64,000 nucleotides of DNA from the NCBI RefSeq assembly GCF_001042695.1, contig NZ_AP012334.1, forward strand, positions 1,054,001 through 1,118,000, in the 5' to 3' direction. This DNA is from Scardovia inopinata JCM 12537 (lineage in GTDB: Bacteria > Actinomycetota > Actinomycetes > Actinomycetales > Bifidobacteriaceae). Both the position numbers and the translations under genes were made by a program. Below, piece after piece: positions 23,836-51,960 of this stretch (position 1 is the first letter of the stretch; every line of letters starts with the position of its first letter). The notes under the pieces were generated by a model. The model had not been told where the DNA came from. It did not search any database and worked only from the letters and a program-made list of their open reading frames with translations.

Positions 23836-25026
23836 TCAGATCAGATTGAGAATTGCCGACACCGCCTTTTCAGCCTGATCGGCACTGACTTCAGTAGGCA
23901 GACACACTATGCGCTGACTGTAAGAGGAAGCGACAGGCAGGGAAGAGGGGTCGAGAGGGATCCGGTAAATTCCTTCGAATCCTTTGGTTATTCCTGGAAA
24001 GAGCTGGGGACGATACCAGCGTTCAGCCAAAATTCCGCGGGCACGAACAGCTGCAACCGCCCTTTCCGCTACTTCCTCGTTTGCCATAAGAACAGGGTAC
24101 CGAAGCAGAGGTGCAGCCTCTGCTCCTGCTGCGCAAGCAGGGATTTCAATACCTTTCTTATTCTGCAGAAGAGAAGTGTAAGTGGACACTATACTCTTTC
24201 TGGCATTTTCATTGGCTTTGAGCCTCTTCAGCTGCCTCATTGCCTTCCGGTTCATCCAGGGCTTGGACCGGTAGGGCTTGTATTCCAGCTCTCCTCTCAT
24301 TTCAGTATCGCTGATGGGAGGTTCATACATGCGCAGATTGGTAAGAGTCTTCCTCAGGGAAGATCCCACTGTTCCCATTCGTGACAGGAGTCGGTTCTGA
24401 TTTACATAAGCCCGGGTTACTAAATTGATCCTCAGACTGATTGGTTCCAGACTGCTCAGCTTCATCCTGATAACCCTGTCCAGCTCAGGCGACCGTTCTT
24501 TAAGGCGAGGATTGACCCAGATGGCTCCCCCAAAGCGGGTATCGAGCATTTTTTCCACTCCGAATGAATACACAGTTATATCGGCCAGGGGATCTCCCGC
24601 TTTATCACGTCCCATGTGGCCAACACAGTGAGCGCAGTCTTCCATGAGCAAAGGACGGTGATTGCCAAAATCCTCCACCATTTTTTCCTTTGTCTCCTGC
24701 ATGCCAGTTGAATCTATAATCCCAAAGGTATGCTGGCGGACTACAGCCCTTGTTTGCTTGTTGACAGGCAAAGGATTGGCCAAACTCAGGCTCTTGGGAT
24801 CAATATCGGCATAGACCGGAGTAAGACCAGCCTGAATGATGGGATCTACAGCGGTGATGCAGGTAAAGGTCTGAGTGAGAACCTGTCCCGATCCCTGAAC
24901 GCTTTTCAGAGCTTCAAAGACCACTTCCATCCCATACCGGGCCTTGAAAACCAGGTACCAGTCCCCTATGCGTGTGTGTGTATATTGTGCCAAAACTTTC
25001 TGGAGTGACTGCGTATGACCTATCAT
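23836..25026 (-). CDS. DegT/DnrJ/EryC1/StrS family PLP-dependent enzyme
   Basis: 396 residues from ATG 25026, which has GAGG 6-7 nt upstream; the frame continues 41 codons further without a ribosome site. Fold type I aminotransferase features: GQVLTQTFTCITAVDPI, GLTPVYADIDPKSLS, LLMEDCAHCVGHMG (Asp that holds the PLP nitrogen), and SFGVEKMLDTRFGGAI (Schiff-base Lys). Family members make amino sugars for surface polysaccharides. Here it is divergent from the murE-ligase-FemAB operon, so a cell-envelope role is plausible. The substrate is unknown. Confidence 0.85.
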   Translation of the reverse strand: MIGHTQSLQKVLAQYTHTRIGDWYLVFKARYGMEVVFEALKSVQGSGQVLTQTFTCITAVDPIIQAGLTPVYADIDPKSLSLANPLPVNKQTRAVVRQHTFGIIDSTGMQETKEKMVEDFGNHRPLLMEDCAHCVGHMGRDKAGDPLADITVYSFGVEKMLDTRFGGAIWVNPRLKERSPELDRVIRMKLSSLEPISLRINLVTRAYVNQNRLLSRMGTVGSSLRKTLTNLRMYEPPISDTEMRGELEYKPYRSKPWMNRKAMRQLKRLKANENARKSIVSTYTSLLQNKKGIEIPACAAGAEAAPLLRYPVLMANEEVAERAVAAVRARGILAERWYRPQLFPGITKGFEGIYRIPLDPSSLPVASSYSQRIVCLPTEVSADQAEKAVSAILNLI

Positions 25027-25184
25027 CGTATCCTCATTTCCGGCGAGATTTCTACCATCAAGCCTAGCATAAACCTGCCTCTCAGGAGTAAAAGAAAAGA
25101 CTTTGTCGTCTGCGCGATGAAATACAGTAAGAAGTGCCCAAAAATGCACTGATTTTCACGGTTTTACCACTTTTTGAGGATGAT

Positions 25185-26807
25185 ATGACACATTCACCTG
25201 CTCCCAGCCCCTCTGACTATGTTCCGGGCAGTCTGACCCTAAGCACAGCCTGCACCATACTCAGGCAGCACGGTCTGCTGAAAGAATTAATTCACCAAGA
25301 CAGTTGGACAGATACTCCTGAGATATGGCCGGCCGAAACGGCAGGCATGACTTTTACCCGTATTTCTTATGATACCCGTCAGGTTGATGATCATACCCTC
25401 CTCTTTTGCAAGGGCCGTTTCCACAGCTCTTATCTGGATAAGGCAGATCAGGATGGTCTGCCCTGTTATGTGGCAGAAAATGACTACAGTCAGGTAACCC
25501 GGGCTATAGGAATAATCGTTACCGATATCAAAAAAGCCATGTCCCTGCTCAGTTCCGCATTTTACCGGTATCCAGCCAAAGAGATCACTGTAATTGGCAT
25601 AACGGGAACTAAAGGAAAAACAACTACAGCCTATTTCACCCATGCCATTCTCAATGCCTATACAGGAGGAAAAGCTGCCCTCCTGTCTTCCGTGGATAAT
25701 TGCCTTGATGGCCATACTTTTGTTGAATCTGACCTGACGACCCCCGAATCCCTGGATCTCTTCAGGATGATGCGGCAGGCAGTCAGTCAAGGAATGAAAT
25801 ACCTGATTATGGAGGTTTCCTCACAGGCATATAAGGTTGACCGGGTTTATGGCCTGACTTTTGCTCTGGGGGCTTTCCTTAATATTTCTCCCGACCATAT
25901 AAGTCCCATCGAACACCCGTCTTTTGAAGATTATTTCTACTGCAAGCGTCAGATTGCTCTTAACTCCTCTGCCCTGGTCCTCAACGCTGACATGGTTCAT
26001 TCCAGTCTGGTTACGCAAGACGCTGGCCTCAGGGGGATTCCGGTAACTACTTTCCGCCTGGAAAACAGCAACGCTGACAGAACTGCAGATCTGACCGTGA
26101 CCTCGATAAGGGAAGATAAGGGCGAATCTCCACAGTTTCAGGCCAGGCTGAAAGGGAAAGACCTGGGGAGATTCAGCCTGAGCATTCCCGGAGATTTCAA
26201 CGGGGCTAATGCGGCAGCAGCCCTGGCCCTGATATCTGCCTGCGGCCTGGATCTAACCAACCCCCATGTGCAGCAAGCCCTCCAGGCTATGGAAAAAGTC
26301 ACGATTGCCGGTCGAATGGAGATCTTCTCTTCCCCAGATAAATCTTTAGTAGGAATTGTTGATTATGCCCACAATGGTGTCAGTGCCTCAGTCCTCCTGG
26401 ATTATATCGATCAGGCATACGGCCGGCTGAACCCCCGCATTATTCTGGTTACCGGTTCTGCGGGGAACAAGGCTTATGACCGGCGTCAGGAAATTGTTGA
26501 AGCTGCCCAAAACAGGATTTCTCGCTTTATTTTTACCGAGGAAGATACCGATACTGAACCCATCATAGATATCTGCCAGCAGATGGATCAAGCAGTCAGC
26601 AACCCACAGGTGGAACATGGAATTATTCTCAGCCGTTCCCAGGCTCTACAAGAAGCCTTTCGAGATGGAAAAGAGCATGCCAGGCAGGGAAAAACGACGG
26701 TGATTGCAGCCATTGGTAAGGGAAATGAACGGTGGATTAAACATCTGAACAAGCATGTTGTCTACCAGGGTGACGACAGGATTATGAAAGGACTCCTTTA
26801 TGATTAA
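25185..26807 (+). CDS. murE: UDP-N-acetylmuramoyl-tripeptide synthetase (MurE)
   Basis: Adds the third residue of the peptidoglycan stem peptide to UDP-MurNAc-L-Ala-D-Glu with ATP. 540 residues from ATG 25185 (TGAGGA upstream). N-terminal UDP-binding domain with FTRISYDTRQVDDHTLLFC, intact P-loop VIGITGTKGKTTTAYF, LTTPESLDLFRMMRQ, LIMEVSSQAYKVDRV, ISPDHISPIEHPSFEDYF (carbamylated-Lys region YCKRQ), GDFNGANAAAALAL and a C-terminal domain with DYAHN. The specificity loop reads TEEDTDTEP, not DNPR, which argues against diaminopimelate and for L-lysine or L-ornithine. It lies outside the dcw cluster, first in an operon with an ATP-grasp ligase and two FemAB proteins. Confidence 0.92.
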   Translation: MTHSPAPSPSDYVPGSLTLSTACTILRQHGLLKELIHQDSWTDTPEIWPAETAGMTFTRISYDTRQVDDHTLLFCKGRFHSSYLDKADQDGLPCYVAENDYSQVTRAIGIIVTDIKKAMSLLSSAFYRYPAKEITVIGITGTKGKTTTAYFTHAILNAYTGGKAALLSSVDNCLDGHTFVESDLTTPESLDLFRMMRQAVSQGMKYLIMEVSSQAYKVDRVYGLTFALGAFLNISPDHISPIEHPSFEDYFYCKRQIALNSSALVLNADMVHSSLVTQDAGLRGIPVTTFRLENSNADRTADLTVTSIREDKGESPQFQARLKGKDLGRFSLSIPGDFNGANAAAALALISACGLDLTNPHVQQALQAMEKVTIAGRMEIFSSPDKSLVGIVDYAHNGVSASVLLDYIDQAYGRLNPRIILVTGSAGNKAYDRRQEIVEAAQNRISRFIFTEEDTDTEPIIDICQQMDQAVSNPQVEHGIILSRSQALQEAFRDGKEHARQGKTTVIAAIGKGNERWIKHLNKHVVYQGDDRIMKGLLYD

Positions 26808-28092
26808 TTTTCTTCCCGTGATTTTAGGCGGTGATGTGGGTGCTTATGCCCTGGCACGGGAGTTCAATGATGCGTATGGGGTAAAACCTATCCTTGTGAC
26901 CGCTTACAATCCCCTGCCTATCAGGGACACAGCCATTGCCCGCCGTCACTACTGCCCTGGTGCTGCTGAAGAAAAGCCTCTGGTGAATGATCTGGCCAGC
27001 CTGGGCCAGCAGCTCAAACAGGAGGATCCCAGCAGGATTTTGATTCTTATGGCCAACACCGAATGGCGTATTCAGGTCCTGGCCCGCAACCGGCAGAAAC
27101 TGGAAACGTGGTATCAGATTCCAATTCCCAGCCTGGAGACGATTGAAAAACTCAACGACAAGGAATCGTTTGAGAATCTCGCCCATCAGGTAGGAATTGA
27201 CACCCCCCTATCTTTTTATCAAGATTTTTCAGCCAGCGATCAGCCAGACTGGAAACCGCAGCCCCTTCCTCAGGAACTGGCCTTCCCCCTGGTAGCCAAG
27301 CCGGCCCAAAGTGCCGAATACGAACAGTTGATGTTTGAGGGAAGAAAGAAGGTGTATAGAATCTCCTCACAGGAAGAATTGGAGCACCTGTGGTCTACCC
27401 TGCGAAAGGCAGGATTCAGAGGGAAGTTCATTGCCCAGCAGCTGATTGAAGGCGACGATACCCAGATGTATTCCATCACTGCCTATGTAAACAAAAAGGG
27501 ATCCGTATCATTCATGGCCTCGGCACGAGTCTTGTTGGAAGAACACCATCCTGCCACCCTGGGCAATCCCTGCGCCATGATAACCACCCCTATCAGCCAC
27601 ATTCTTCAGCCAGCCAAGCGCCTGCTTGAATCTGTTGATTACCACGGCTTCGCCAATTTTGATGTAAAACAGGATCCCCACAGCGGCCGCTTCTATTTCC
27701 TGGAGGTCAATCCCCGAATTGGCCGTAACAGCTTCTACTGTCTGGGGGCCGGCATTAACCCCATGAAAGAAATGACCGATGACCTCCTGCAAGTCAGCCA
27801 GGAAGCAGACCAGGGGCAGAGCCCGATACAGAGTTCAGACGGACAGACCCGCGTAGCCAGCGGGGAAATTCTCTACTGTCTTATTCCCCACAGACTCTTA
27901 AAGAAATATATTCAGGATCCTGCCCTCCTGAACCAGGTAAATTCCCTGATCCGCTCCCATCGGACAGTCGACCCTCTTATCAACCCCAAGGATAGGTCTT
28001 TCAAGCGTAGGCTGTATCATTGGGAATCAGGAATAAGCCACTATCGCAAATTCCATGCCTATTATCCTAAGCCGACTGCAACAGGATTTTAG
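26800..28092 (+). CDS. ATP-grasp ligase, D-aspartate ligase-like
   Basis: 430 residues. The N-terminus FLPVILGGDVGAYALAREF resembles the beginning of the Enterococcus D-aspartate ligase, which activates the beta-carboxyl of D-Asp and joins it to the third stem residue. The ATP-grasp core is visible: FPLVAKPAQSAEY (ATP-binding Lys), GKFIAQQLIEGDDTQMYS, and the metal-binding FYFLEVNPRIGRNSFYC (Glu, Asn). The start overlaps the murE stop by 8 bp, so the two are translationally coupled. With the two FemAB genes downstream it is a candidate for the first bridge residue. Substrate is inference; other amino-acid ligases are possible. Confidence 0.8.
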   Translation: MINFLPVILGGDVGAYALAREFNDAYGVKPILVTAYNPLPIRDTAIARRHYCPGAAEEKPLVNDLASLGQQLKQEDPSRILILMANTEWRIQVLARNRQKLETWYQIPIPSLETIEKLNDKESFENLAHQVGIDTPLSFYQDFSASDQPDWKPQPLPQELAFPLVAKPAQSAEYEQLMFEGRKKVYRISSQEELEHLWSTLRKAGFRGKFIAQQLIEGDDTQMYSITAYVNKKGSVSFMASARVLLEEHHPATLGNPCAMITTPISHILQPAKRLLESVDYHGFANFDVKQDPHSGRFYFLEVNPRIGRNSFYCLGAGINPMKEMTDDLLQVSQEADQGQSPIQSSDGQTRVASGEILYCLIPHRLLKKYIQDPALLNQVNSLIRSHRTVDPLINPKDRSFKRRLYHWESGISHYRKFHAYYPKPTATGF

Positions 28093-28208
28093 ACAGGATT
28101 TTGGAGATATCCAGATATATCCGGTTAGGCCAGCCCATCCCGGAATTATCAGGAAAAGCTTCTGCACCAGGCGACAGCAGGATATCATCGCAGATGATGG
28201 GAGGACAC

Positions 28209-29222
28209 GTGTTTACGGCAACAGAAACAAACAGTAAGGAAAAGTGGCAGCAGGCTTGGGAGGTGCTCAGCGGCCATCCTCTTCAATCGTGGCAATGGGG
28301 ACAGCTGAAAACCCAGACCGGCCCGTGGGATGCTCATCGGATTATTATTACCGATGATTCAGGCAAAACGGTAGGCGGAGCTCAGATTCTGGTCCGCAGT
28401 CTGCCCTGGCCTTTCACTGCCATGTGTTATATTCCCCGCGGCCCTCTGGCTGCTCCAGGAACTCACCTAGCTGATATTGCTGATGTCTGCGCTGCCTGGT
28501 GTAAAAAAAATACCAGGGCTGTCAGTCTGAAAATTGATCCTGCTGTCACCAAAGCTGACTTAGGAAAAAATCTGTCTGCATCCTGGTCGAATGCCCCTAC
28601 CGTCCTGATAGCGAAAACGGCCACAATCCCCCTGACCGGCAGCCAGGATGAAATTATGCACAGCATTCATTCCAAGAAAGCCCGGCAGTATATTCGTAAA
28701 GCAACCAGAGAAGGCGTTGTCTGCCGACCTGCCCGCAGGGAAGATCTACCTGACATTCTTAACCTTTACCATCACACAGCAAACAATGATGGTTTTGCCC
28801 TCCATTCGGACGAGTTTTACAACCAAGCCTGGTCTGTCCTGGATGGAATTAACCAGGTATTTGTGGCTGAAGCTGAAGGAAAAATTCAGGCTTTCCTCTG
28901 GAATGCCACCAGTGGTGATACTGCTTTTGAACTCTGGGGAGCGGTCAGCGATCAAGGAAAGAAGCTCAGGGCCAACTATGCCCTCAAATGGACAGCAATC
29001 TGCGCTGCCAAAGACAGGGGCACCCGTCTGTATGATCTCAATGGCCTTCTCAATGATGGCATCAGCGACTTTAAACTGCTCTGGGTGTCGGAACCCACCT
29101 GGTGGATAGGAACCTTTGACCATCCCCTCAAACCCCTTGCAGGCCTGTGGAAGACAGCGATGCGTCTCCACAGCAAATGGAATCAAAGGAATGATGCACA
29201 GAAAAACACCAGTTCGGATTAA
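28209..29222 (+). CDS. FemAB/FemX-type peptidoglycan bridge aminoacyltransferase (first copy)
   Basis: 338 residues from GTG 28209, chosen for GGGAGGA 4-5 nt upstream and family length; the frame opens at 28101. The protein begins with the FemABX pattern LSGHPLQSWQWGQLK, then AMCYIPRGPLAAP, IHSKKARQYIRKATREGVVC (acceptor/lipid II region) and ends with YDLNGLLNDGISDFKLLWVS. Such enzymes move an amino acid from aminoacyl-tRNA onto the lipid II stem peptide in the cytoplasm. The amino acid cannot be told. It follows the ATP-grasp ligase by 116 bp. Confidence 0.88.
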   Translation: MFTATETNSKEKWQQAWEVLSGHPLQSWQWGQLKTQTGPWDAHRIIITDDSGKTVGGAQILVRSLPWPFTAMCYIPRGPLAAPGTHLADIADVCAAWCKKNTRAVSLKIDPAVTKADLGKNLSASWSNAPTVLIAKTATIPLTGSQDEIMHSIHSKKARQYIRKATREGVVCRPARREDLPDILNLYHHTANNDGFALHSDEFYNQAWSVLDGINQVFVAEAEGKIQAFLWNATSGDTAFELWGAVSDQGKKLRANYALKWTAICAAKDRGTRLYDLNGLLNDGISDFKLLWVSEPTWWIGTFDHPLKPLAGLWKTAMRLHSKWNQRNDAQKNTSSD

Positions 29223-29329
29223 TTCTTCTTCAGGTGCTTCTGCTATAACTGCACAGGTGGCTGATAGCAGCCGCCATCATACATAAGTGCAAAACTACAA
29301 GGCTCATATAAACAGCAAAAGGGGAAGCT

Positions 29330-30349
29330 ATGAGTATGTTTCTTGTCAGGACAGTGTCTGAACAGGAATATAAGAAGCTAATTTCCGCCGCTGAGGTTTC
29401 TGTCCCCATTGAACAGACCCCACTCTGGGCAAGATATCAAGCCACTATTCAGGACCGTAAACCCTGGCGTTTTCTGGCTGTATATAATAAAACCCGTCCC
29501 ATAGCTGTGCTCAGTCTCATCCGCTATTCGACCCACGGCTATCATTTCCTGCGGGCAGCACACGGACCGGTTTACCTGGATCAGAACAAACAAGCCAGTG
29601 CCTCCACGGAATCGAATCTGGCAGATGCCCTCCTGGCTTACACTCGTTCTGAGGCCTCTGATGCTGTTTTTATTCGCATGGCTTCCCGCTGTGACTTGAG
29701 GCAAAGCAGGCCTGTCCTGTCCAGCATACCGTATGATCAGACTGTTGTTATTGACACCACAGGAAGCAGTGACGATATTCTGTCCAGGATGAAAAGGCGG
29801 GGGCGGCGGGATGTACGCAAGTCTCTGCGGGAGTGCCCGGCAATCTGTGCCGATGAGACCGAGCAGGCAAGCAGGGATTTTTCTGACTACTATGCAGTTT
29901 TAGAAGATACGGGACAGAGGGATGGTTTCGAACCAGCACCAATGAGTGACTACTCCACCATGATTTCTGCTCTGGGGCCCAATCACTGCCGGGTGTATGC
30001 AGCCCGCTTGGACGGCAAAGTTATTGCCTGGTCACTGGTAACCATTAATGGAAACCGAGCAGTGCGCTATTATGCAGCAATGATGTCCCAGACCCGTAAA
30101 ATGCATGTAACCGACCGGCTGCTCTTTGAAGAATGCTGCCTCTTGTCCCGCAGGGGAATTACCCGCTATGATCTCATGGGGATTGGCAGCGATTTCTCCC
30201 CCAGCCTTAAAGGGCTCAACGAATTCAAGACCAAGTTTACTACGGAGACCACAGCCGTGAGTCCGGAACGCGATTTCCCCATACACAAGATTGCCTTCTC
30301 TATCCTGTCAGGATTGCAAAAGCTGCGCGGCCGCAGAGGCAAAGATTAA
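29330..30349 (+). CDS. FemAB/FemX-type peptidoglycan bridge aminoacyltransferase (second copy)
   Basis: 339 residues, starting at an ATG with AAGGGG upstream. Motifs parallel the first copy: EQTPLWARYQATIQDRKPW, FLRAAHGPVYLDQ, ILSRMKRRGRRDVRKSLREC, and a C-terminal YDLMGIGSDFSPSLKGLNEF. The two copies are clearly diverged, so they may add different residues in order to the interpeptide bridge. Gap to the previous gene is 107 bp, so it is likely in the same operon. Convergent with smc. Confidence 0.88.
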   Translation: MSMFLVRTVSEQEYKKLISAAEVSVPIEQTPLWARYQATIQDRKPWRFLAVYNKTRPIAVLSLIRYSTHGYHFLRAAHGPVYLDQNKQASASTESNLADALLAYTRSEASDAVFIRMASRCDLRQSRPVLSSIPYDQTVVIDTTGSSDDILSRMKRRGRRDVRKSLRECPAICADETEQASRDFSDYYAVLEDTGQRDGFEPAPMSDYSTMISALGPNHCRVYAARLDGKVIAWSLVTINGNRAVRYYAAMMSQTRKMHVTDRLLFEECCLLSRRGITRYDLMGIGSDFSPSLKGLNEFKTKFTTETTAVSPERDFPIHKIAFSILSGLQKLRGRRGKD

Positions 30350-34195: not shown

Positions 34196-35824
34196 CTATT
34201 TATCCCCGTCCGTCAGACCATCGTGCAAGACTTCCTGCAGATACCGAGACACGGCAGATAAGGTGTCATCATCATCGCCACTGGTATCATCGCTATCAGC
34301 ACCCTGCCTGATATTATCACCCTGCCCCGGCTCTTGACTTCCTGCAGAAGCCGTAAGGCCAACAGAAACAGCCGTCTGAGACCTGTCTTCCTGGTTGGCA
34401 GTCAAATCCCTGGCACGCTGTTCCACTGTTTTAGCCAACTCCTGATTGGGCTTTTCCTCCAGGAGAGTCCGGGCATCTCCCACAGTAACAAAACTGCCAA
34501 AGATTACAATCCCGTGCCCATAACCTACACCCAGATCATCATCCACATCTACCAAATTGACAGCGGTCTGTATAGCGTCGGGCAGGGAATCCTGACGTAT
34601 GACCCTGTCGGGTCCGAACACATCCTGAGCAATCTTTTCCAGCTGATCTACCGACATAACTCTCTGTGTCCACGAATTCTCAGTTACAATGATTTTGTCC
34701 AGTACCGGCTCCATTATTCCCAGGACAGCTTCCACATCCTTATCTTTCATCATGGAAACCACACCTACGATCTGCTTAAAATCGAAGTTCTCTTCCAAAG
34801 CCTCTCTGACAGCGCTGACTGCCTGTACATTATGACCTCCATCCAGAATGATGGTTGGGGAAGAACGAATAATTTCCAATCTACCTGGAACTTTTACCGT
34901 CTGCAAAGCCTGGGAAACTATATCATTATTCAGCTGACCACTCACAGGAATAACAGCCTCTGCTGCTGACAAAGCAGCCAGGGCATTATGAGCCTGATGA
35001 GAACCAAACAGGGAAATAGGAAGATCCTGGTATGTCCCCTGGCTGGTCTGTAGGGTAGCCATCTGCCCGCCGACCGCAGGAACTCGGGAAAGAACCTGGA
35101 TCTCCTGCCCGTCATGCAGAACCGCCCTGGCACCTATTTCTGAAGCCTGGTCGTCAATAATAGACAGAACGGATTCATGGGTTTGAGGGCCGACAACCAC
35201 CAGAGAGCCAGGCTTGATAATGCCGACCTTCTCCCGGGCAATATCCTCCACTGTACTCCCCAGCCACTGGGTATGATCCAGATCAACCGGACCAATAACC
35301 GCCGCATCTGCAGTCACCACATTAGTGGCATCCCAGCGACCCCCCATGCCTACTTCCATAATGGCAACATCCACTGGAGCGTCAGCAAAAGCCCAGATTG
35401 CCATAGTGGTCAGGACCTCAAAAAAGCTCATGCGGGGGCCGCTGTCAGCAAGGCTTGCAGCATCAACCATATCAATAAAATCTTTGACCTGGACATACAG
35501 GTCTGCAAACTGCTCATCACTGACCCGCTGACCATCAATAGCAATGCGCTCGGTTATTGACTGCACATGAGGAGAAGTATAAAGCCCGGTTCGAAGCCCA
35601 TACGCACGGCAGATGGATTCAGCCATCTTGGCGGTTGACCCCTTGCCATTTGTTCCTGTGATATGAACTACACGGAAAGATTTCTCAGGATGACCCATAA
35701 AGTCCAGAACCATCTTCATACGGTCAAGTGATGGGTCGAAATCATGCTCAGGCGAGCGAGACATGATTTCCCTGTACACCTGATCAATTGTTCTGCTGAA
35801 ATCTTGTGGAAACTCCTGTGACAT
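34196..35824 (-). CDS. folC: Folylpolyglutamate synthase / dihydrofolate synthase
   Basis: Adds glutamate to dihydropteroate and to folates, using ATP. 542 residues: P-loop VVHITGTNGKGSTAKM, the omega-loop region YTSPHVQSITERIAI, MEVGMGGRWDATNVV, DLDHTQWLGSTVEDIAREKVGI, and a C-terminal Mur-ligase-type domain with IILDGGHNVQAVSAV and VIFGSFVTVGDAR. The last 80 residues (QEDRSQTAVSVG through SDDTSGDDDDTLSA) are a low-complexity acidic extension beyond the family's usual length. It is immediately upstream of smc, and divergent from the aminopeptidase gene. Confidence 0.94.
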   Translation of the reverse strand: MSQEFPQDFSRTIDQVYREIMSRSPEHDFDPSLDRMKMVLDFMGHPEKSFRVVHITGTNGKGSTAKMAESICRAYGLRTGLYTSPHVQSITERIAIDGQRVSDEQFADLYVQVKDFIDMVDAASLADSGPRMSFFEVLTTMAIWAFADAPVDVAIMEVGMGGRWDATNVVTADAAVIGPVDLDHTQWLGSTVEDIAREKVGIIKPGSLVVVGPQTHESVLSIIDDQASEIGARAVLHDGQEIQVLSRVPAVGGQMATLQTSQGTYQDLPISLFGSHQAHNALAALSAAEAVIPVSGQLNNDIVSQALQTVKVPGRLEIIRSSPTIILDGGHNVQAVSAVREALEENFDFKQIVGVVSMMKDKDVEAVLGIMEPVLDKIIVTENSWTQRVMSVDQLEKIAQDVFGPDRVIRQDSLPDAIQTAVNLVDVDDDLGVGYGHGIVIFGSFVTVGDARTLLEEKPNQELAKTVEQRARDLTANQEDRSQTAVSVGLTASAGSQEPGQGDNIRQGADSDDTSGDDDDTLSAVSRYLQEVLHDGLTDGDK

Positions 35825-46202: not shown

Positions 46203-47333
46203 CTAAAGAAGACCTGAAGCAAAAACCCAATCACCGTAAAAAATAATAACCCCCAGAATAACAAAGATCATCTCTACCATCCAAAAGCGAACGACTACCT
46301 TGTTTTCCGGCCACCCCAGGAGTTCAAAATGATGATGAATAGGAGCCATCTTAAAGACTCTCTTGTGGGTGGCCTTAAAGCAGCCTACTTGAATGACATC
46401 CGACAAAGTTTCAACCACAAAGAGGCCGCCAATGATGATAGCCAAGACTTCTGTATGAGTGGCGATAGACAAGGCAGCAAACAGGCCTCCCAGGGCAAGG
46501 GAGCCGGTGTCGCCCATGAATATTTGGGCTGGATTGGTGTTATACCAGAGGAAACCAAAGCAGGCGGCTACGGCGCAGACGGCAATAATAGCCAAATCCT
46601 GAGGATCTGCCACTGTATAGGCCATTCCACCCTGATGAAAAGCCAGACGACCAATGCCAGCCAGGTGGAAACCAGCCCTGTGATAACTCTGCCAGAAAGC
46701 AATGAGACCATATCCCAAAAAAGCCACCATGGAACTGCCGGCACAGAGTCCATCCAGACCATCGGTCAGATTGAAAGCATTGGTCCAGGCGGTCATCAGC
46801 AAGTTAACCCAGATAACAAACAGAATAGTTGCAGCAATCTTGCCCAGACTCTGAAAATCAATAATCAGATTTTCGCTGAAGGAAATGCCGGGATGGGCGG
46901 CTGGCCCGGTGCCAGGCGATGTCGTCATCAGAGATAAGACGGCATAAATAGTAGCGAAAATAAACTGACCAATGAATTTGGCCCTCACGCTCAAGCCTTC
47001 GTTTTGTTTCTTGGACACTTTGGCAAAGTCATCAATGAAGCCAAGGGCTCCCATGGAAAGCATAGCAAAAAGAACCAGGAGCGCAGGGATAGAGAAAGAG
47101 GTGCCAAAGGCAAGGAAGCGGTAGAGGGCTGAAGAGAACCAGCCCAGAAGGATAGCGAGGTTAATGACCACCCCTCCCATGGTGGGTGTTCCCCTCTTAA
47201 CCAGGTGGCTTTGCGGCCCATCCTGGCGAATATATTGACCGTAATGGAGCCGTTCCACAATCCGCATCATAATGGGAGTGCCAGTAAAAATAACAATCAG
47301 AGAAACGATTAGGCCAATAATAAGGGCTATCAT
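46203..47333 (-). CDS. mraY: Phospho-N-acetylmuramoyl-pentapeptide-transferase
   Basis: Makes lipid I by joining phospho-MurNAc-pentapeptide to undecaprenyl phosphate. 376 residues from ATG 47333, which overlaps the murF stop (ATGA). About ten membrane helices with the signatures RGTPTMGGVVINLAILLG, FIDDFAKVSKKQNEGLSVRA (catalytic Asp pair), TNAFNLTDGLDGLCAGSSM and MGDTGSLALGGLFAAL, and the C-terminal PIHHHFELLGWPENKVVVRF. All key residues are present. Confidence 0.95.
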   Translation of the reverse strand: MIALIIGLIVSLIVIFTGTPIMMRIVERLHYGQYIRQDGPQSHLVKRGTPTMGGVVINLAILLGWFSSALYRFLAFGTSFSIPALLVLFAMLSMGALGFIDDFAKVSKKQNEGLSVRAKFIGQFIFATIYAVLSLMTTSPGTGPAAHPGISFSENLIIDFQSLGKIAATILFVIWVNLLMTAWTNAFNLTDGLDGLCAGSSMVAFLGYGLIAFWQSYHRAGFHLAGIGRLAFHQGGMAYTVADPQDLAIIAVCAVAACFGFLWYNTNPAQIFMGDTGSLALGGLFAALSIATHTEVLAIIIGGLFVVETLSDVIQVGCFKATHKRVFKMAPIHHHFELLGWPENKVVVRFWMVEMIFVILGVIIFYGDWVFASGLL

Positions 47334-48904
47334 GATTCCACTTCCCCGTTGATCTTGTCTGACTGTGACCACATATTCGCTAATGTTTGCAGGCCGGAGG
47401 CATGAGAGCCTTTGAGAAGAACCACACTTCCCGGATTTTGCCTGGCCAGCTGAGCTACCCGTGTTGCTGCCTGCCCGGCTGAATGCTCCTCATAGGCCTT
47501 CAGCAGGCGAACAGGCGATTGCTCCGCCCTCTGGCAAGCCCCCTGACAAAGTGCTGATGCCAAAGTATCCAGATGGTCGTCTGTTTCGCTGCCCACTGTT
47601 ACCACATAATCAGCAGACTGGGCCGCATATGCTCCCAGAGAATGGTGAAGATCTTCTTCCCGAGGTCCCAATTCCAACATGGATCCCAGAACGGCAATCT
47701 TTACCGGTTCATTGCCAGATTCAGCAGATTTCCAGCCGCTCAAAGCATCCAGGCCGGCCTTCATAGAGTCTGGATTAGCATTAAAAGAATCATCAATCAA
47801 AGTAAAACTCTCCCCTGCTGTGAGCGTAACCAGACTGACCGCCATACGGTGCGGGCTCATAGCCTTGTGATTAAACAGCACAGAAGCAATAGTCTGCGGA
47901 CGAACACCAAGGCAATAGGCAACGCTGACTGCCGCCAAGGCATTCATCACATTATGAACTCCTGACAAGCCTAACGTAACGGGAATGCCGGGAAGATCAG
48001 GCAGGTGAAGGGTAAAAGAAGGGTGATCCTCCTGATCCTGACGGGTATCGGTCGCATAAATAAAAATCTGTTTTCGAGAGTCACCGGGCAAATTTTGGGG
48101 ATCAATCCTGCCATCGGAAAACCATACCAAAGTGGACGCGTGGGTAGATCCAGTCATCAGACGAATATTGGGATCCTGAGCATTGAGCACAGCAATTCCC
48201 TGGGAAGTCAGAGCCTGAACAAGCTCGCTTTTTGCCTGACGGATCCCATCAACTGATCCAAAACCGCCCAGGTGAGCTGCGCCAACCTTAAGCTCCACAG
48301 CTATATCGGGAGGAACCAGCCTGGTCAGGTAAGCGATCTCCCCCGCCGCAGACGCGCCCATTTCGGCAACAAAGTAGCGGGTAGTTTCATCTACCTTCAC
48401 AGCGGTGAGGGGAAGACCAATTTCATTGTTGAAAGATCCCACAGGAGCAATGGTTGTTCCCGCGGTCTGCAGAAGATCTTTGACCAAATCCTTGGTAGTT
48501 GTTTTACCCACAGAACCGGTAATGCCCACTACAGTAAAATCTTTCCCTTCTGCCAGGGCAATTTGACGGCGGCGGCTGATGTTGTATCGGGCAAGTCTGC
48601 CCAAAGATCCGATCGTATCGGTCACCACCAGCTGAGGAAGGACTGCCCCCTCTACAGGGTGCTCCACCAGAGCTGCGCAAGCCCCAGCCCGGGCAGCCTG
48701 ATTCACATAATCATGCCCATCTACCCGCTCTCCCTTGATGGCAACAAAAAGGCTCCCTTCAGACACCTGACGGGAATCGGTAACAACAGAAGTAATCTTG
48801 GTTGAACTGTCGCTTCTGTCTCCTGCCTGCGATGAATCGGACGGACTGGATACAAGAGTGGCAGAAAGTATCTGAGCTGCCTGGAAGACTGACAGGGCAA
48901 TCAT
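47330..48904 (-). CDS. murF: UDP-N-acetylmuramoyl-tripeptide-D-alanyl-D-alanine ligase
   Basis: Adds D-Ala-D-Ala to the tripeptide precursor. 524 residues: N-terminal domain with VVTDSRQVSEGSLFVAIKGE, P-loop VVGITGSVGKTTTKDLVKDL, NNEIGLPLTAVKV, YFVAEMGASAAGEIAYLTRL, LSGVHNVMNALAAV and DDSFNANPDSMKAGLDAL. The ATG at 48904 has AGGAG upstream and overlaps the stop of the previous gene by one base. It is unaffected and looks fully functional. Confidence 0.95.
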   Translation of the reverse strand: MIALSVFQAAQILSATLVSSPSDSSQAGDRSDSSTKITSVVTDSRQVSEGSLFVAIKGERVDGHDYVNQAARAGACAALVEHPVEGAVLPQLVVTDTIGSLGRLARYNISRRRQIALAEGKDFTVVGITGSVGKTTTKDLVKDLLQTAGTTIAPVGSFNNEIGLPLTAVKVDETTRYFVAEMGASAAGEIAYLTRLVPPDIAVELKVGAAHLGGFGSVDGIRQAKSELVQALTSQGIAVLNAQDPNIRLMTGSTHASTLVWFSDGRIDPQNLPGDSRKQIFIYATDTRQDQEDHPSFTLHLPDLPGIPVTLGLSGVHNVMNALAAVSVAYCLGVRPQTIASVLFNHKAMSPHRMAVSLVTLTAGESFTLIDDSFNANPDSMKAGLDALSGWKSAESGNEPVKIAVLGSMLELGPREEDLHHSLGAYAAQSADYVVTVGSETDDHLDTLASALCQGACQRAEQSPVRLLKAYEEHSAGQAATRVAQLARQNPGSVVLLKGSHASGLQTLANMWSQSDKINGEVES

Positions 48905-50094
48905 TAATTATTCTCCTGACGTTTGTTGATTTCCTGCGCCAAGAGCAAGGCGCTGCGAACATTATTTTTGCGGACCCCAGCGCTCATTGCCATGGCAGCA
49001 CTCAGGTAAACTTCATATTCCTGATCAGCAGGGATGGAATCCAACACGCTACGGGCGACTTGCCGAGAGGCATCAGTGGGAAGTACACAATGCGTATCAT
49101 CATCAATACGAGCCCCAAAAGAAGCAAGCTCCTGCCTGAGCCTGGATGTGAGATCGTGCCGGGATGAATGCCCCTCCCCCTTGTGATAATTAGGGATCCA
49201 CCGAGACCAGTGCCTCTCTTGTGGGCGGCTGGGTTGATGGTTGTCTTCAGCCTCAGCAAATTCAGCGGAATGGTCCCTGCCAGAATCCCCCCCTGTTTTT
49301 TCTTCCCCCATTTTTCCATCTCTTTTGCCAGACGATGGATCAGAGGTCAGATCAGAAGAGTTAATCTGATCAGTTTGTGCAGTCCTTTCTGTTTGTGTGG
49401 TATGTGGCTGAAGATCGGAAGCAATAAAAGACTGAGTGTGTCCACAGACATCAATTCCCACATGGCTTAAGGCTCCAGGATTAAAAGTACTGCTGTTGAT
49501 GGTAAGAATGACCGTATTTACCCCATCTTCCAGCATTTGGGACAAAATCATCTGGGTTTCCAGAGGACCCAGAGGATAAGTACAGTCCAACTCCCTCTCC
49601 AGTGAGAAAGACTTTCTGGAGTCAATAACCCCAATGGGGTTGCCCAGCAAGTGCAGGAGTTGAGCCAGGGAATCAGCAGCATAAGAGGCCTTCTGGCCGA
49701 CAACAGCAAACGTTGCCAAGGTGTCAGTAGGCCGCCCGGCAAGGAGAAAGGCCAGATATCCCAGCTGTGCCGGACCCAGGTCTCCAAAAAGCAGGGGAAT
49801 AGTAGAGACTGAGGAGGAGGAAGAGGAGGAAGCAGAAGCCTGCTGGAGTTTTTCTTTAACCGAAGTGGGGAAAAGTATGCTGTAAGCTCCTTTACTTTCA
49901 GCTTCTTTAATCTGCTCTAGAGGGCCCTGATCAGTTCCCAGATAGAGGGTGCCGGGGGAAACTTTTTCCAGTGAATCAGACAGGGAGGTAACAGTAATAT
50001 CTTTGCCATAAGGGAAGTCGGTACTTACACCAAACCTGCGAATCAGGTCACTGACAGTGAAGTGTTCTGACGTCGCCTCAGTCAGGAAGCTCAT
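48904..50094 (-). CDS. MurE-like protein without an ATP-binding P-loop, at the murE slot of the dcw cluster
   Basis: 396 residues. The N-terminal part (DITVTSLSDSLEKVSPGTLY, EAESKGAYSILF) matches the UDP-binding domain of Mur ligases. The middle lines up with MurE: TYPLGPLETQMILSQMLEDG and VNTVILTINSSTFNPGAL against TTPESLDLFRMMRQAVSQG and LIMEVSSQAYKVDRV. But the P-loop position reads AVVGQKASYAADSLAQL instead of G-T-K-G-K-T-T-T (about residues 130-145, 49660-49710), and the ISPDH and specificity blocks are missing, replaced by a Ser/Glu/His-rich linker (about 230-310). A ligase reaction is therefore unlikely. It keeps a good ribosome site and an unbroken frame, coupled to murF, so it is under selection: perhaps a scaffold or regulator. 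Confidence 0.75.
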   Translation of the reverse strand: MSFLTEATSEHFTVSDLIRRFGVSTDFPYGKDITVTSLSDSLEKVSPGTLYLGTDQGPLEQIKEAESKGAYSILFPTSVKEKLQQASASSSSSSSVSTIPLLFGDLGPAQLGYLAFLLAGRPTDTLATFAVVGQKASYAADSLAQLLHLLGNPIGVIDSRKSFSLERELDCTYPLGPLETQMILSQMLEDGVNTVILTINSSTFNPGALSHVGIDVCGHTQSFIASDLQPHTTQTERTAQTDQINSSDLTSDPSSGKRDGKMGEEKTGGDSGRDHSAEFAEAEDNHQPSRPQERHWSRWIPNYHKGEGHSSRHDLTSRLRQELASFGARIDDDTHCVLPTDASRQVARSVLDSIPADQEYEVYLSAAMAMSAGVRKNNVRSALLLAQEINKRQENN

Positions 50095-50130: not shown

Positions 50131-51960
50131 TTACCATGTAGTACTTATAGCACTCTTGCGAGGGGTTGACTGGGGAATCTTATACTTCTGCATAAGGAAT
50201 TCACCAATGGCATTGATTACTGGGCCGGTTGCGATACCGCCATGCTCGGAAGGATTCATAAACATAACAGTAATAACATAGCGGGGGTTATCAGCCGGGA
50301 TAACCACGGAGGTATCGCCTACGATCCTGGTGAGGGCACCAGAGCTGTCAGCGACTTCAGCCGTTCCTGTTTTTCCGGCCAACCTGTACCCCTTGACCTT
50401 AATCACGTTCTTGTATTCCTCATCCATGACGGATTCCATCATATCCATCATGTCTGCTGCTGTCCCCTTGCTTACCACCCTGGTGCTGGCAGCGGGAGTA
50501 GGAGTCGTGTCTTTCCCGTCTTTGTCTGTGGATTTCTCAATAATGGACTGGCCTACCCGCACACCTCCATGTGCCAAGGTTGCTACCACATTGGACAACT
50601 GCAGGATGTTGACTGTATACCCCTGACCGAAGAGAACAGTTTCCTTGGTCCTGGTGTTCCACTGCGAATCAGGATAGAGAAGCCCATTGGAAATACCGGG
50701 ATAAGCAATTCCCAGACTTTGCCCAATGCCAAACTTTTTCAGGTAAGCATAACGGTCGGCAGCCGTATACTTAGTGGAAGCCATGATCATACCGACATTG
50801 GAAGATTCATTCAGAATCCCAGCCAGGGTCAAATGCTCCGTACCGTGACTTTCCACATCCTTATACCGCTGCCCGTTCAGAAAAAGAGTTCCTGGGACAG
50901 CAAACCGATCTGACCCCTTATGAATTCCCAGCTGTAAGAGACCGGCTGACGAAATCAGTTTGCCTATGGACCCTGGCTCAAAGGTAGAATTCATGGCCAT
51001 AGAGCCCTTCAAAATAGCCTGAGAACTTCCAGCTTGATAAGAATTGGTATCTGCTATGGCCAGGATCTTCCCAGTTGAGACTTCCTGCACACAGGCCACG
51101 CCCCACATGGCCCCCATTTCTTTTCTGCGGGACTTGAGATTTTTTTCCAGATACCACTGGACATCCCTGTCAATTGTCAGCCGAACTGTCCCCCCATTTT
51201 TGGCACCTTGGATTACTGTTTCAGTACCGGGGATCCTTTGACCGCTGCCGGCACGCTGATATACCTGTTTGCCATTGCTCCCGTTTAAGGAAGAGTTCAT
51301 CATAGCTTCAATCCCTGAGACCCCGATCCCCTTGGAATCTACTCCGCCAATGAATGCCCCGGCTACGCTGCCGCTGGAATAGGATCTTCTCACCGTCAGC
51401 TCTGAACCAATCACACCGGACAGATTAAGTTTGTCAATGGCTCGTTTAACTGCAGGTGCTACATTTTTTTTGAGAACGATGTAGGAGTTATTCCCAGCCA
51501 GCTTGGCGCCAAGCTCCATAGTATTCATACCCAACACAGGAGCAAGGATTTTTGCCACCGCAGCAGGTCCGGACCCTGGAACATTATGCCCGTTTATTGC
51601 ATGGCAGGAAGATTCATTAGTTCCTTTACAGGCGATGGGCTGGAAGTTTCTGGCACCCTTTTGATCTGCATAGATAGTATAGCGCTGCTCGCTCTGGGCC
51701 AGGACGACTCCGTTGGTGTCAGTAATATTACCGCGAATAGCCTGAACAGTGGAATCCACTGTGCGAAAAGCTGCCGCCTGCTGTGCTGTAGCAGGGCCCT
51801 GAATCAGCTGAACAACAGTCAAACGAATAATAAGAATGACAACGAGAACAATAATGAGGAAGGTTAATCCCAGAGTCCTTCTGCGGAAAGTCTTGCTGTA
51901 TGCTGGGTCGCTGGACCCTGTGTGCAAGGTTTTAATCAAACCTTGTAGGCGCTCTTTCAC
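50131..51960 (-). CDS. ftsI: Septal penicillin-binding protein 2b/3, transpeptidase FtsI
   Basis: Cross-links septal peptidoglycan. 609 residues from a GTG with GAGG upstream. One membrane helix (about 30-52), a PBP dimerisation domain, and the transpeptidase domain with SIGKLI (catalytic Ser and Lys, about residue 331), ILNESSNVGM (SxN) and LAGKTGTAEVAD (KTG). VLAQSEQRYTIYADQ follows the helix. There are no PASTA repeats. Standard dcw position between ftsL and the murE slot. Confidence 0.94.
   Translation of the reverse strand: MKERLQGLIKTLHTGSSDPAYSKTFRRRTLGLTFLIIVLVVILIIRLTVVQLIQGPATAQQAAAFRTVDSTVQAIRGNITDTNGVVLAQSEQRYTIYADQKGARNFQPIACKGTNESSCHAINGHNVPGSGPAAVAKILAPVLGMNTMELGAKLAGNNSYIVLKKNVAPAVKRAIDKLNLSGVIGSELTVRRSYSSGSVAGAFIGGVDSKGIGVSGIEAMMNSSLNGSNGKQVYQRAGSGQRIPGTETVIQGAKNGGTVRLTIDRDVQWYLEKNLKSRRKEMGAMWGVACVQEVSTGKILAIADTNSYQAGSSQAILKGSMAMNSTFEPGSIGKLISSAGLLQLGIHKGSDRFAVPGTLFLNGQRYKDVESHGTEHLTLAGILNESSNVGMIMASTKYTAADRYAYLKKFGIGQSLGIAYPGISNGLLYPDSQWNTRTKETVLFGQGYTVNILQLSNVVATLAHGGVRVGQSIIEKSTDKDGKDTTPTPAASTRVVSKGTAADMMDMMESVMDEEYKNVIKVKGYRLAGKTGTAEVADSSGALTRIVGDTSVVIPADNPRYVITVMFMNPSEHGGIATGPVINAIGEFLMQKYKIPQSTPRKSAISTTW

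Follow-up and report, generated by a model that had tools for sequence, protein, structure and literature searches.

That Mur enzymes act as a physical complex is a long-standing proposal, in which scaffolding is hard to separate from catalysis as the ligases are essential. In MurE, domains 1 and 2 hold the nucleotide-sugar and the dipeptide, and the roles of the motif residues, including the carbamylated Lys and the metal sites, are known from MurE structures. MurT, a Mur-ligase relative outside the MurC–MurF set, is the Mur-ligase-like subunit of MurT-GatD. A MurE–MurF fusion of Bordetella (8f5d), described as bifunctional, has MurE physically beside MurF and binds MurG, and Mur enzymes are described as binding one another (PMC6420597); PAP11, the MurE-like subunit of the chloroplast RNA polymerase, is described as a MurE relative serving in a large complex (PMC9456514). 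The MurE-derived open reading frame (ORF) considered here, labelled psE, occupies the murE slot of the division and cell wall (dcw) cluster at 48904–50094 (minus strand) of a 64,000-nucleotide stretch of Scardovia inopinata JCM 12537 (contig NZ_AP012334.1, positions 1,054,001 to 1,118,000), below referred to as the window. It is a conserved pseudoenzyme, a relative of MurE but no MurE, since both the P-loop and domain 3 were looked for and found absent. As psE has lost the parts needed for the chemistry and yet stays conserved, it very probably does a non-enzymatic job in wall building. What computation shows is the MurE fold and descent, the catalytic loss, a fixed place ahead of murF, a purifying mode of selection, and retention by a reduced genus, g12.

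The psE frame is intact, starts with ATG, encodes 396 residues, and is present in one copy in its genome. Its translation includes ...LATFAVVGQKASYAADSLAQLLHLLGNP..., which contains the stretch quoted in the initial annotation, and both the P-loop and the ISPDH block are absent from it. Profile searches with the single protein yield no Pfam family at E ≤ 10 and a weak likeness to the NCBIfam MurE-MurF model (E = 4.1e-6, residues 43–220). For 28 psE relatives, Pfam at E ≤ 1 gives no Mur family, hence no Mur_ligase_C; eight non-Mur families, each matching one to three of the 28, were dismissed as chance. The NCBIfam MurE-MurF model matches 25 of these relatives at E ≤ 0.01 (best 6.7e-15), and their joint profile matches Mycobacterium tuberculosis MurE with E = 4e-15. 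The AlphaFold2 model of psE has a mean predicted local distance difference test score (pLDDT) of 82.4 (at least 90 for 271 of the 396 residues) and a predicted template modelling score of 0.78. Its best Foldseek match is again M. tuberculosis MurE (E = 1.2e-13), with Z of 22.4 and a root-mean-square deviation of 3.9 over 280 aligned residues, covering MurE 27–382; as the alignment stops at MurE 382, domains 1 and 2 are present in psE, and domain 3 is absent. The model of a compact relative from B. criceti (pLDDT 90.2) gives Z of 22.4 over 276 residues. Chance likeness to MurE was rejected on the strength of the structure match (Z 22.4).

Actinobacterial MurE (UDP-MurNAc-L-Ala-D-Glu:meso-diaminopimelate ligase; M. 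tuberculosis 2wtz/2xja) is thus the best profile and structure match, sharing the fold of domains 1 and 2, and in 20 loci of other families it takes the same slot after ftsI; unlike it, psE lacks the P-loop, the DH pair, the Lys site, and domain 3, and has a new invariant motif, LHxLGNP. The match of psE to PAP11 is tied with that to MurE (Z 22.4, 285 residues); however, PAP11 is a plant protein of about 770 residues that belongs to another complex, and its residues 259–665 match the working bifidobacterial MurE, so that PAP11 keeps the later part of MurE. In contrast to the Bordetella fusion, psE is a separate protein and, judging by its motifs, would be inactive.

Two sets of psE loci were collected. 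The genome set comes from 99 genomes, the window's own included, 61 of which belong to the same family, Bifidobacteriaceae. The contig-scan set comprises the best 80 of 121 matches (78 Bifidobacterium, one Gardnerella, and one Bifidobacteriaceae metagenome-assembled genome); its query was a narrow alignment, hence, it leans to Bifidobacterium and misses divergent genera. The sets overlap in 13 identical proteins, and together hold 129 frames, 115 of them distinct. psE is present in 49 of the 61 family genomes and was not found in 11; the remaining one, G039 (76% complete), has a fragment only, and its dcw cluster was not found. In all, the search matched 61 genomes, of which 11 lie outside the family, with frames of at least 536 residues, which were taken as MurE. 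For 248 genomes of the order, which were taken from a larger group, the listed matches include 19 psE, all from family f1 and with E of 1.1e-92 or better; the others listed are open frames of at least 431 residues, as expected of real MurE, judged by length except for 20 inspected loci. In all 20 of these other-family dcw loci, ftsI is succeeded by a full-length P-loop MurE, with murF recognised next in 19.

In all 49 genome-set loci, psE stands before murF; its upstream neighbor is ftsI in 42 of them and mraW in the other seven, which lack ftsI, and the order ftsI-psE-murF holds in 80/80 contig-scan loci. In the window, ftsI (50131–51960) and murF (47330–48904), both on the minus strand, are the upstream and downstream neighbors, and psE and murF have one base in common, which confirms the intact, murF-coupled frame between the two genes that the initial annotation had described. 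The lengths of psE range from 280 to 413 residues (median 295), and no frame among the 129 is truncated; ten C-terminal matches flagged with one internal stop represent the natural stop of shorter relatives (G014, G016, and G058 were compared).

Alignment columns were compared between 21 psE and 20 dcw MurE of other families, considering MurE columns conserved at 90% or more. Of the P-loop, psE has lost T, T, N, G, K, and T, and has kept the first glycine. Also lost are both Thr of TTP (Pro is kept); Glu, Ser, Ser, and His of EVSSHA and the next Arg; Asp-His, Lys, two Asn, GRM, and the whole of domain 3. Most or all of the 21 proteins lack the conserved G..HGA loop in domain 1 and, in domain 2, the TT, SSH, and Arg residues. 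The former P-loop site of the window's psE, residues 130–143 (49666–49707, minus strand), aligns with TGTNGKT of 20/20 other-family dcw MurE, which had been chosen by the P-loop pattern. It reads AVVGQKASYAADSL; the residues here differ between relatives, so the string quoted in the initial annotation is no conserved motif. A Walker loop at the old site is found in 0/129 psE frames, while all 60 real MurE compared, chosen by pattern, have it. A displaced P-loop was considered and rejected, as the single GxxxxGK[ST] string elsewhere (L123) falls in a variable linker.

Other columns are newly fixed in psE: T13, V33, T34, S37, Y71, A127, F129, H148, N152, P153, S164, R167, L169, D190, L209, M368, and A372. 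Several of these fall into two motifs, LHLLGNP (residues 147–153; 49636–49656, minus strand), which represents the family motif LHxLGNP, invariant in 129/129 members, and EDG (residues 189–191; 49522–49530, minus strand), where D190 is newly fixed (Asp in 20/21, Glu in 1/21). Judging from the topology of the model, both would lie in loops that lead into strands, with the former P-loop at the other pole of the sheet. The N-terminus is disordered in the model (residues 1–6 have pLDDT below 50). Here, Ser2 and Glu6 each occur in 77/80 contig-scan loci, and in the more diverse genome set, Ser2 occurs in 33/49 loci and Glu6 in 30/49; conservation in spite of disorder suggests a binding peptide in most members. 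Another low-confidence region, the variable insert at residues 236–305 (49180–49389, minus strand; pLDDT below 50 over 236–257 and 259–305), is longer in the window's genus than in most psE relatives, according to the alignment.

Selection was assessed by the Nei–Gojobori dN/dS ratio (omega) in independent pairs of contig-scan loci with psE dS of 0.1–1.2. Over 31 pairs, the median omega is 0.231 for psE (range 0.037–0.912), 0.230 for murF, 0.197 for ftsI, and 0.081 for mraY; for mraW it is 0.153 (29 pairs). The 14 pairs with psE dS below 0.5 give psE omega of 0.037–0.336, and values above 0.5 come only from pairs with dS above 0.5, a range where the method is poor. The constraint on psE about equals that on murF and is, perhaps, lower in distant comparisons. 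The central proposal of the initial annotation, a MurE-like protein retained without its catalytic parts, is borne out by the structure model, the column losses, omega, and the presence in 49/61 genomes and 80/80 loci: the model is Mur-ligase-like, the Walker loop is absent from its site throughout, no relative is truncated, and orthologues are found at the same place across most Bifidobacteriaceae examined, with omega like that of murF.

The reduced genus g12 is represented by seven genomes of 0.6–0.9 Mb (87–100% complete). In all seven, the cluster reads mraW-psE-murF, with no ftsI beside psE; in three long loci it continues as mraY-murD-murG-murC, and ftsW and ftsQ were not recognised. The mraW-psE gap of locus L247 is about 60 bases, therefore, ftsL and ftsI are gone from that spot. 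Whole-genome searches give one gene of the SEDS (shape, elongation, division and sporulation) family in 6/7 genomes and none in G059 (87% complete), as compared to two in the window's genome; transpeptidase genes number two in 6/7, one in G059, and four in the window's genome. In the six genomes, the SEDS gene adjoins a transpeptidase gene, like the second pair of the window's genome. A POTRA/FtsQ-type domain was found in 0/7 g12 genomes vs. 5/5 other family genomes searched alongside; FtsZ is present in 7/7. The g12 psE is intact, with omega of 0.043–0.141 (murF, 0.071–0.129; 21 non-independent pairs). As g12 keeps psE under murF-like selection, psE is worth keeping without the dcw FtsI and FtsW. 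A MurE relative that lacks the catalytic parts family-wide and is kept even where dcw division genes are missing is a separation of scaffold from catalysis made by nature. In g12 loci L247, L251, L267, L040–L043, and L047, the dcw genes ftsL, ftsI, and ftsW are missing, and the cytoplasmic mur genes and FtsZ are kept; these cells may divide with one RodA-type pair only.

A complete MurE with GITGTKGKTTT, reported in the initial annotation, is indeed encoded about 22 kb from psE, at 25134–26807 (plus strand); the position 25185 given there is the ATG at residue 18 of this frame. It is the working enzyme by motif content (GITGTKGKTTT and NISPDH). The psE profile scores a median of 48.6 bits (12.3–99.0, n = 20) against other-family dcw MurE, 18.6 bits (3.7–27.4, n = 26) against working bifidobacterial MurE, and 24.7 bits (n = 9) against MurE of psE-less lineages; for the working enzyme, 26 of 30 loci gave a sequence, and 11 of those entered the tree. 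In this tree (66 rows, 198 columns), psE forms one group with support 100/100, and a split supported at 100/98 separates the working MurE and the MurE of psE-less lineages from psE and dcw MurE. By these sequence comparisons, psE is probably the former MurE of the dcw cluster, whose task went to another MurE, so of the two origins named in the initial annotation, duplication or replacement, it is the latter that is favored.

The DNPR motif, a mark of diaminopimelate use, occurs in 0/26 working bifidobacterial MurE vs. 11/20 dcw MurE; bifidobacterial walls contain Lys or Orn. A switch of the third stem residue that came with the new MurE would have freed the old dcw enzyme. In the window, murE is followed by genes for an ATP-grasp protein and two FemAB-type transferases (26800–30349, plus strand), probably for cross-bridge synthesis. 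The region 23836–30349, where MurE is grouped with a DegT-type aminotransferase, the ATP-grasp protein, and the two FemAB-type transferases, is likely an interpeptide-bridge cluster and may mark a change of wall type. A MurE match elsewhere in the genome accompanies psE in 48 of its 49 carriers, with none found in G044 (82% complete). G033 (87% complete) has psE (L012), and the sole MurE found there is of another type, with SDNPR (L219), which suggests a further replacement of the working enzyme in this genome. psE is, therefore, not tied to one MurE.

Taken together, these data lead us to propose, as the leading reading, though one that falls somewhat short of probable, a docking role for psE, which would serve the precursor machinery near the membrane as a subunit without catalysis and without dependence on FtsI. 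A different MurE, beside the cross-bridge genes, would have taken over the chemistry; the dcw copy would then have shed domain 3 together with most substrate motifs, the lysine and metal sites, and the ability to bind ATP; domains 1 and 2 would have been kept as a rigid body with the newly fixed LHxLGNP and EDG and, in most members, the disordered N-terminal peptide. In MurE's former place, psE would dock to the machinery of MurF, MraY, MurG, and the SEDS/class B penicillin-binding protein (PBP) enzymes that use lipid II. Precedents are the mutual binding of Mur enzymes and their binding to MurG, described for the Bordetella fusion, and PAP11, in which a MurE relative turned into a subunit of a complex. 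More tentatively, this dead MurE could be a standing subunit across most Bifidobacteriaceae that couples MurF, MraY, and MurG to whichever SEDS–PBP pair uses lipid II, that is, FtsW–FtsI where present and the remaining RodA-type pair in g12. If true, such coupling reconciles the covariation with FtsI, given below, with the retention of psE after the loss of ftsI. Several observations weigh against docking to the precursor machinery. In branch-rate covariation, the top partner of psE is FtsI, followed by MraY and FtsW; there is no link with murF (−0.02), murE (−0.06), murD (−0.01), or murG (−0.12), and a negative one with mraW (−0.28). Several distant pairs show psE omega about twice that of murF (e.g., 0.84 vs. 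0.35). The 11 family genomes where psE was not found represent genera g4, g5, g8, g9, and g14 (57–89% complete), and in the five psE-less loci with both neighbors recognised (L212, L215, L218, L225, and L088), ftsI is directly followed by murF; hence, the job of psE can be lost or done otherwise, and the slot in these loci is empty, not refilled by a live MurE. Finally, the profile scores and the tree disfavor a duplicate of the working MurE as the source of psE, though joining psE to the working MurE is not rejected by the approximately unbiased test (p = 0.19).

The covariation analysis covered the 40 genomes that have all 12 genes, out of 45 dcw sets (mraZ left out; 77 branches, 66 pairs); its figures carry no correction for multiple testing, and tree shape is handled only by regression. 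The strongest of the 66 pairs is psE–ftsI (Spearman 0.50), compared with 0.44 for ftsI–ftsW; psE shows weaker correlation with mraY (0.30), ftsW (0.28), and ftsL (0.20). A cruder first pass over 75 contig-scan loci (of the 80, three were left out, and two more did not have all genes) gave 0.59 for psE–ftsI, the top of 28 pairs, 0.44 for psE–ftsL, and 0.12 for psE–murF. On these values, lipid II users are favored as the main partner over MurF or MurE. The scaffold of a Mur complex, an idea of the initial annotation, is possible; covariation points to FtsI over MurF, yet g12 keeps psE without a dcw ftsI. Top covariation in both passes, together with ftsI upstream of psE in 42/49 and 80/80 loci, initially favored a pure role of psE on the cytoplasmic side of the septal synthase, where it would partner FtsI (together with FtsW and FtsL) and belong to the divisome, not to the precursor pathway. 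This now appears unlikely, as g12, where ftsI does not adjoin psE and where both a second SEDS gene and an FtsQ-type domain are missing, has psE under strong selection; besides, covariation can reflect the shared history of adjacent genes, although the neighbor murF shows none. The covariation and g12 results are in conflict if the partner must be FtsI, and agree if psE serves the precursor-to-synthase step with any SEDS–PBP pair.

The co-occurrence with a MurE match in 48/49 carriers, and dead paralogs that activate live partners in other pathways, could by analogy suggest that psE acts on the working MurE, either stabilising it or regulating it allosterically; this is improbable given the psE–murE coefficient cited above, the other type of MurE in G033, and the distance of about 22 kb between the two genes in the window. 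Slightly less probable still is a sensor of UDP-MurNAc-dipeptide, put forward in the initial annotation, or of another precursor: the two ligand-holding domains are kept as a fold in the model, but most substrate-motif columns conserved in MurE are lost in psE, including the G..HGA loop, TT, SSH, and Arg, known for their ligand role. It is highly improbable that psE is a decaying relic kept only through translational coupling of murF. Apart from the one-base overlap in the window, psE and murF overlap in 15/49 genome-set loci (the window included; starts are estimated); however, by the chosen starts, none of the 80 contig-scan loci has an overlap, and 26/80 have gaps above 100 nt. The murF-like median omega, the lack of truncation in 129 frames, the invariant motifs, and the retention of psE in genomes of 0.6–0.9 Mb also argue against decay. 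psE is a likely case of enzyme replacement with the old enzyme retained as a non-enzyme.

Five further psE-less loci have murF without a recognised ftsI (L214, L217, L223, L224, and L226). In L212, L215, and L218, a MurE lies a few kb off on the opposite strand. From their place and the state of their genomes, we infer that the 11 psE-less genomes are the termite-symbiont Bifidobacteriaceae lineages described in PMC11707648.

psE is a real family-wide pseudoenzyme, well suited to experiment; it is open to deletion, tagging, and pull-down in a tractable Bifidobacterium, and its gene, conserved in major gut commensals, is a wall gene so far unstudied. The literature search, whose coverage leaves out most subscription journals, returned no paper recognisable as dealing with this protein. 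B. breve Bbr_0246, which is annotated as murE and may be psE, the working MurE, or a further copy, is listed among insertion mutants sensitive to iron chelators in PMC5449479. With regard to essentiality, a B. breve paper on transposon-directed insertion-site sequencing contains neither “mur” nor “fts” in its main text (PMC5514069).

A scan for promoters and terminators gave two promoter-like sites (5.0 in shuffles) and six terminator-like sites (6.1 in shuffles), nothing usable; a phage search with psE gave a single match (E = 0.4), regarded as chance. Besides MurE, the genome has as Mur_ligase_M genes MurC, MurD, MurF, the frame 34196–35824, which we take to be FolC, and a MurT-like ligase, presumably L035 (genome positions 160431–161060), the last two assigned by eye. 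Like psE, MurT is a Mur-ligase relative outside the MurC–MurF set; unlike psE, the candidate L035, far from the dcw cluster, has an intact GTNGKTTT. Elsewhere, one Bifidobacteriaceae genome (G008:C29, L222) has tandem MurE frames of 532 and 525 residues, and in family f14, L220 (G073) and L221 (G090) represent a second MurE frame apart from the dcw MurE, with DESPH replacing DNPR.

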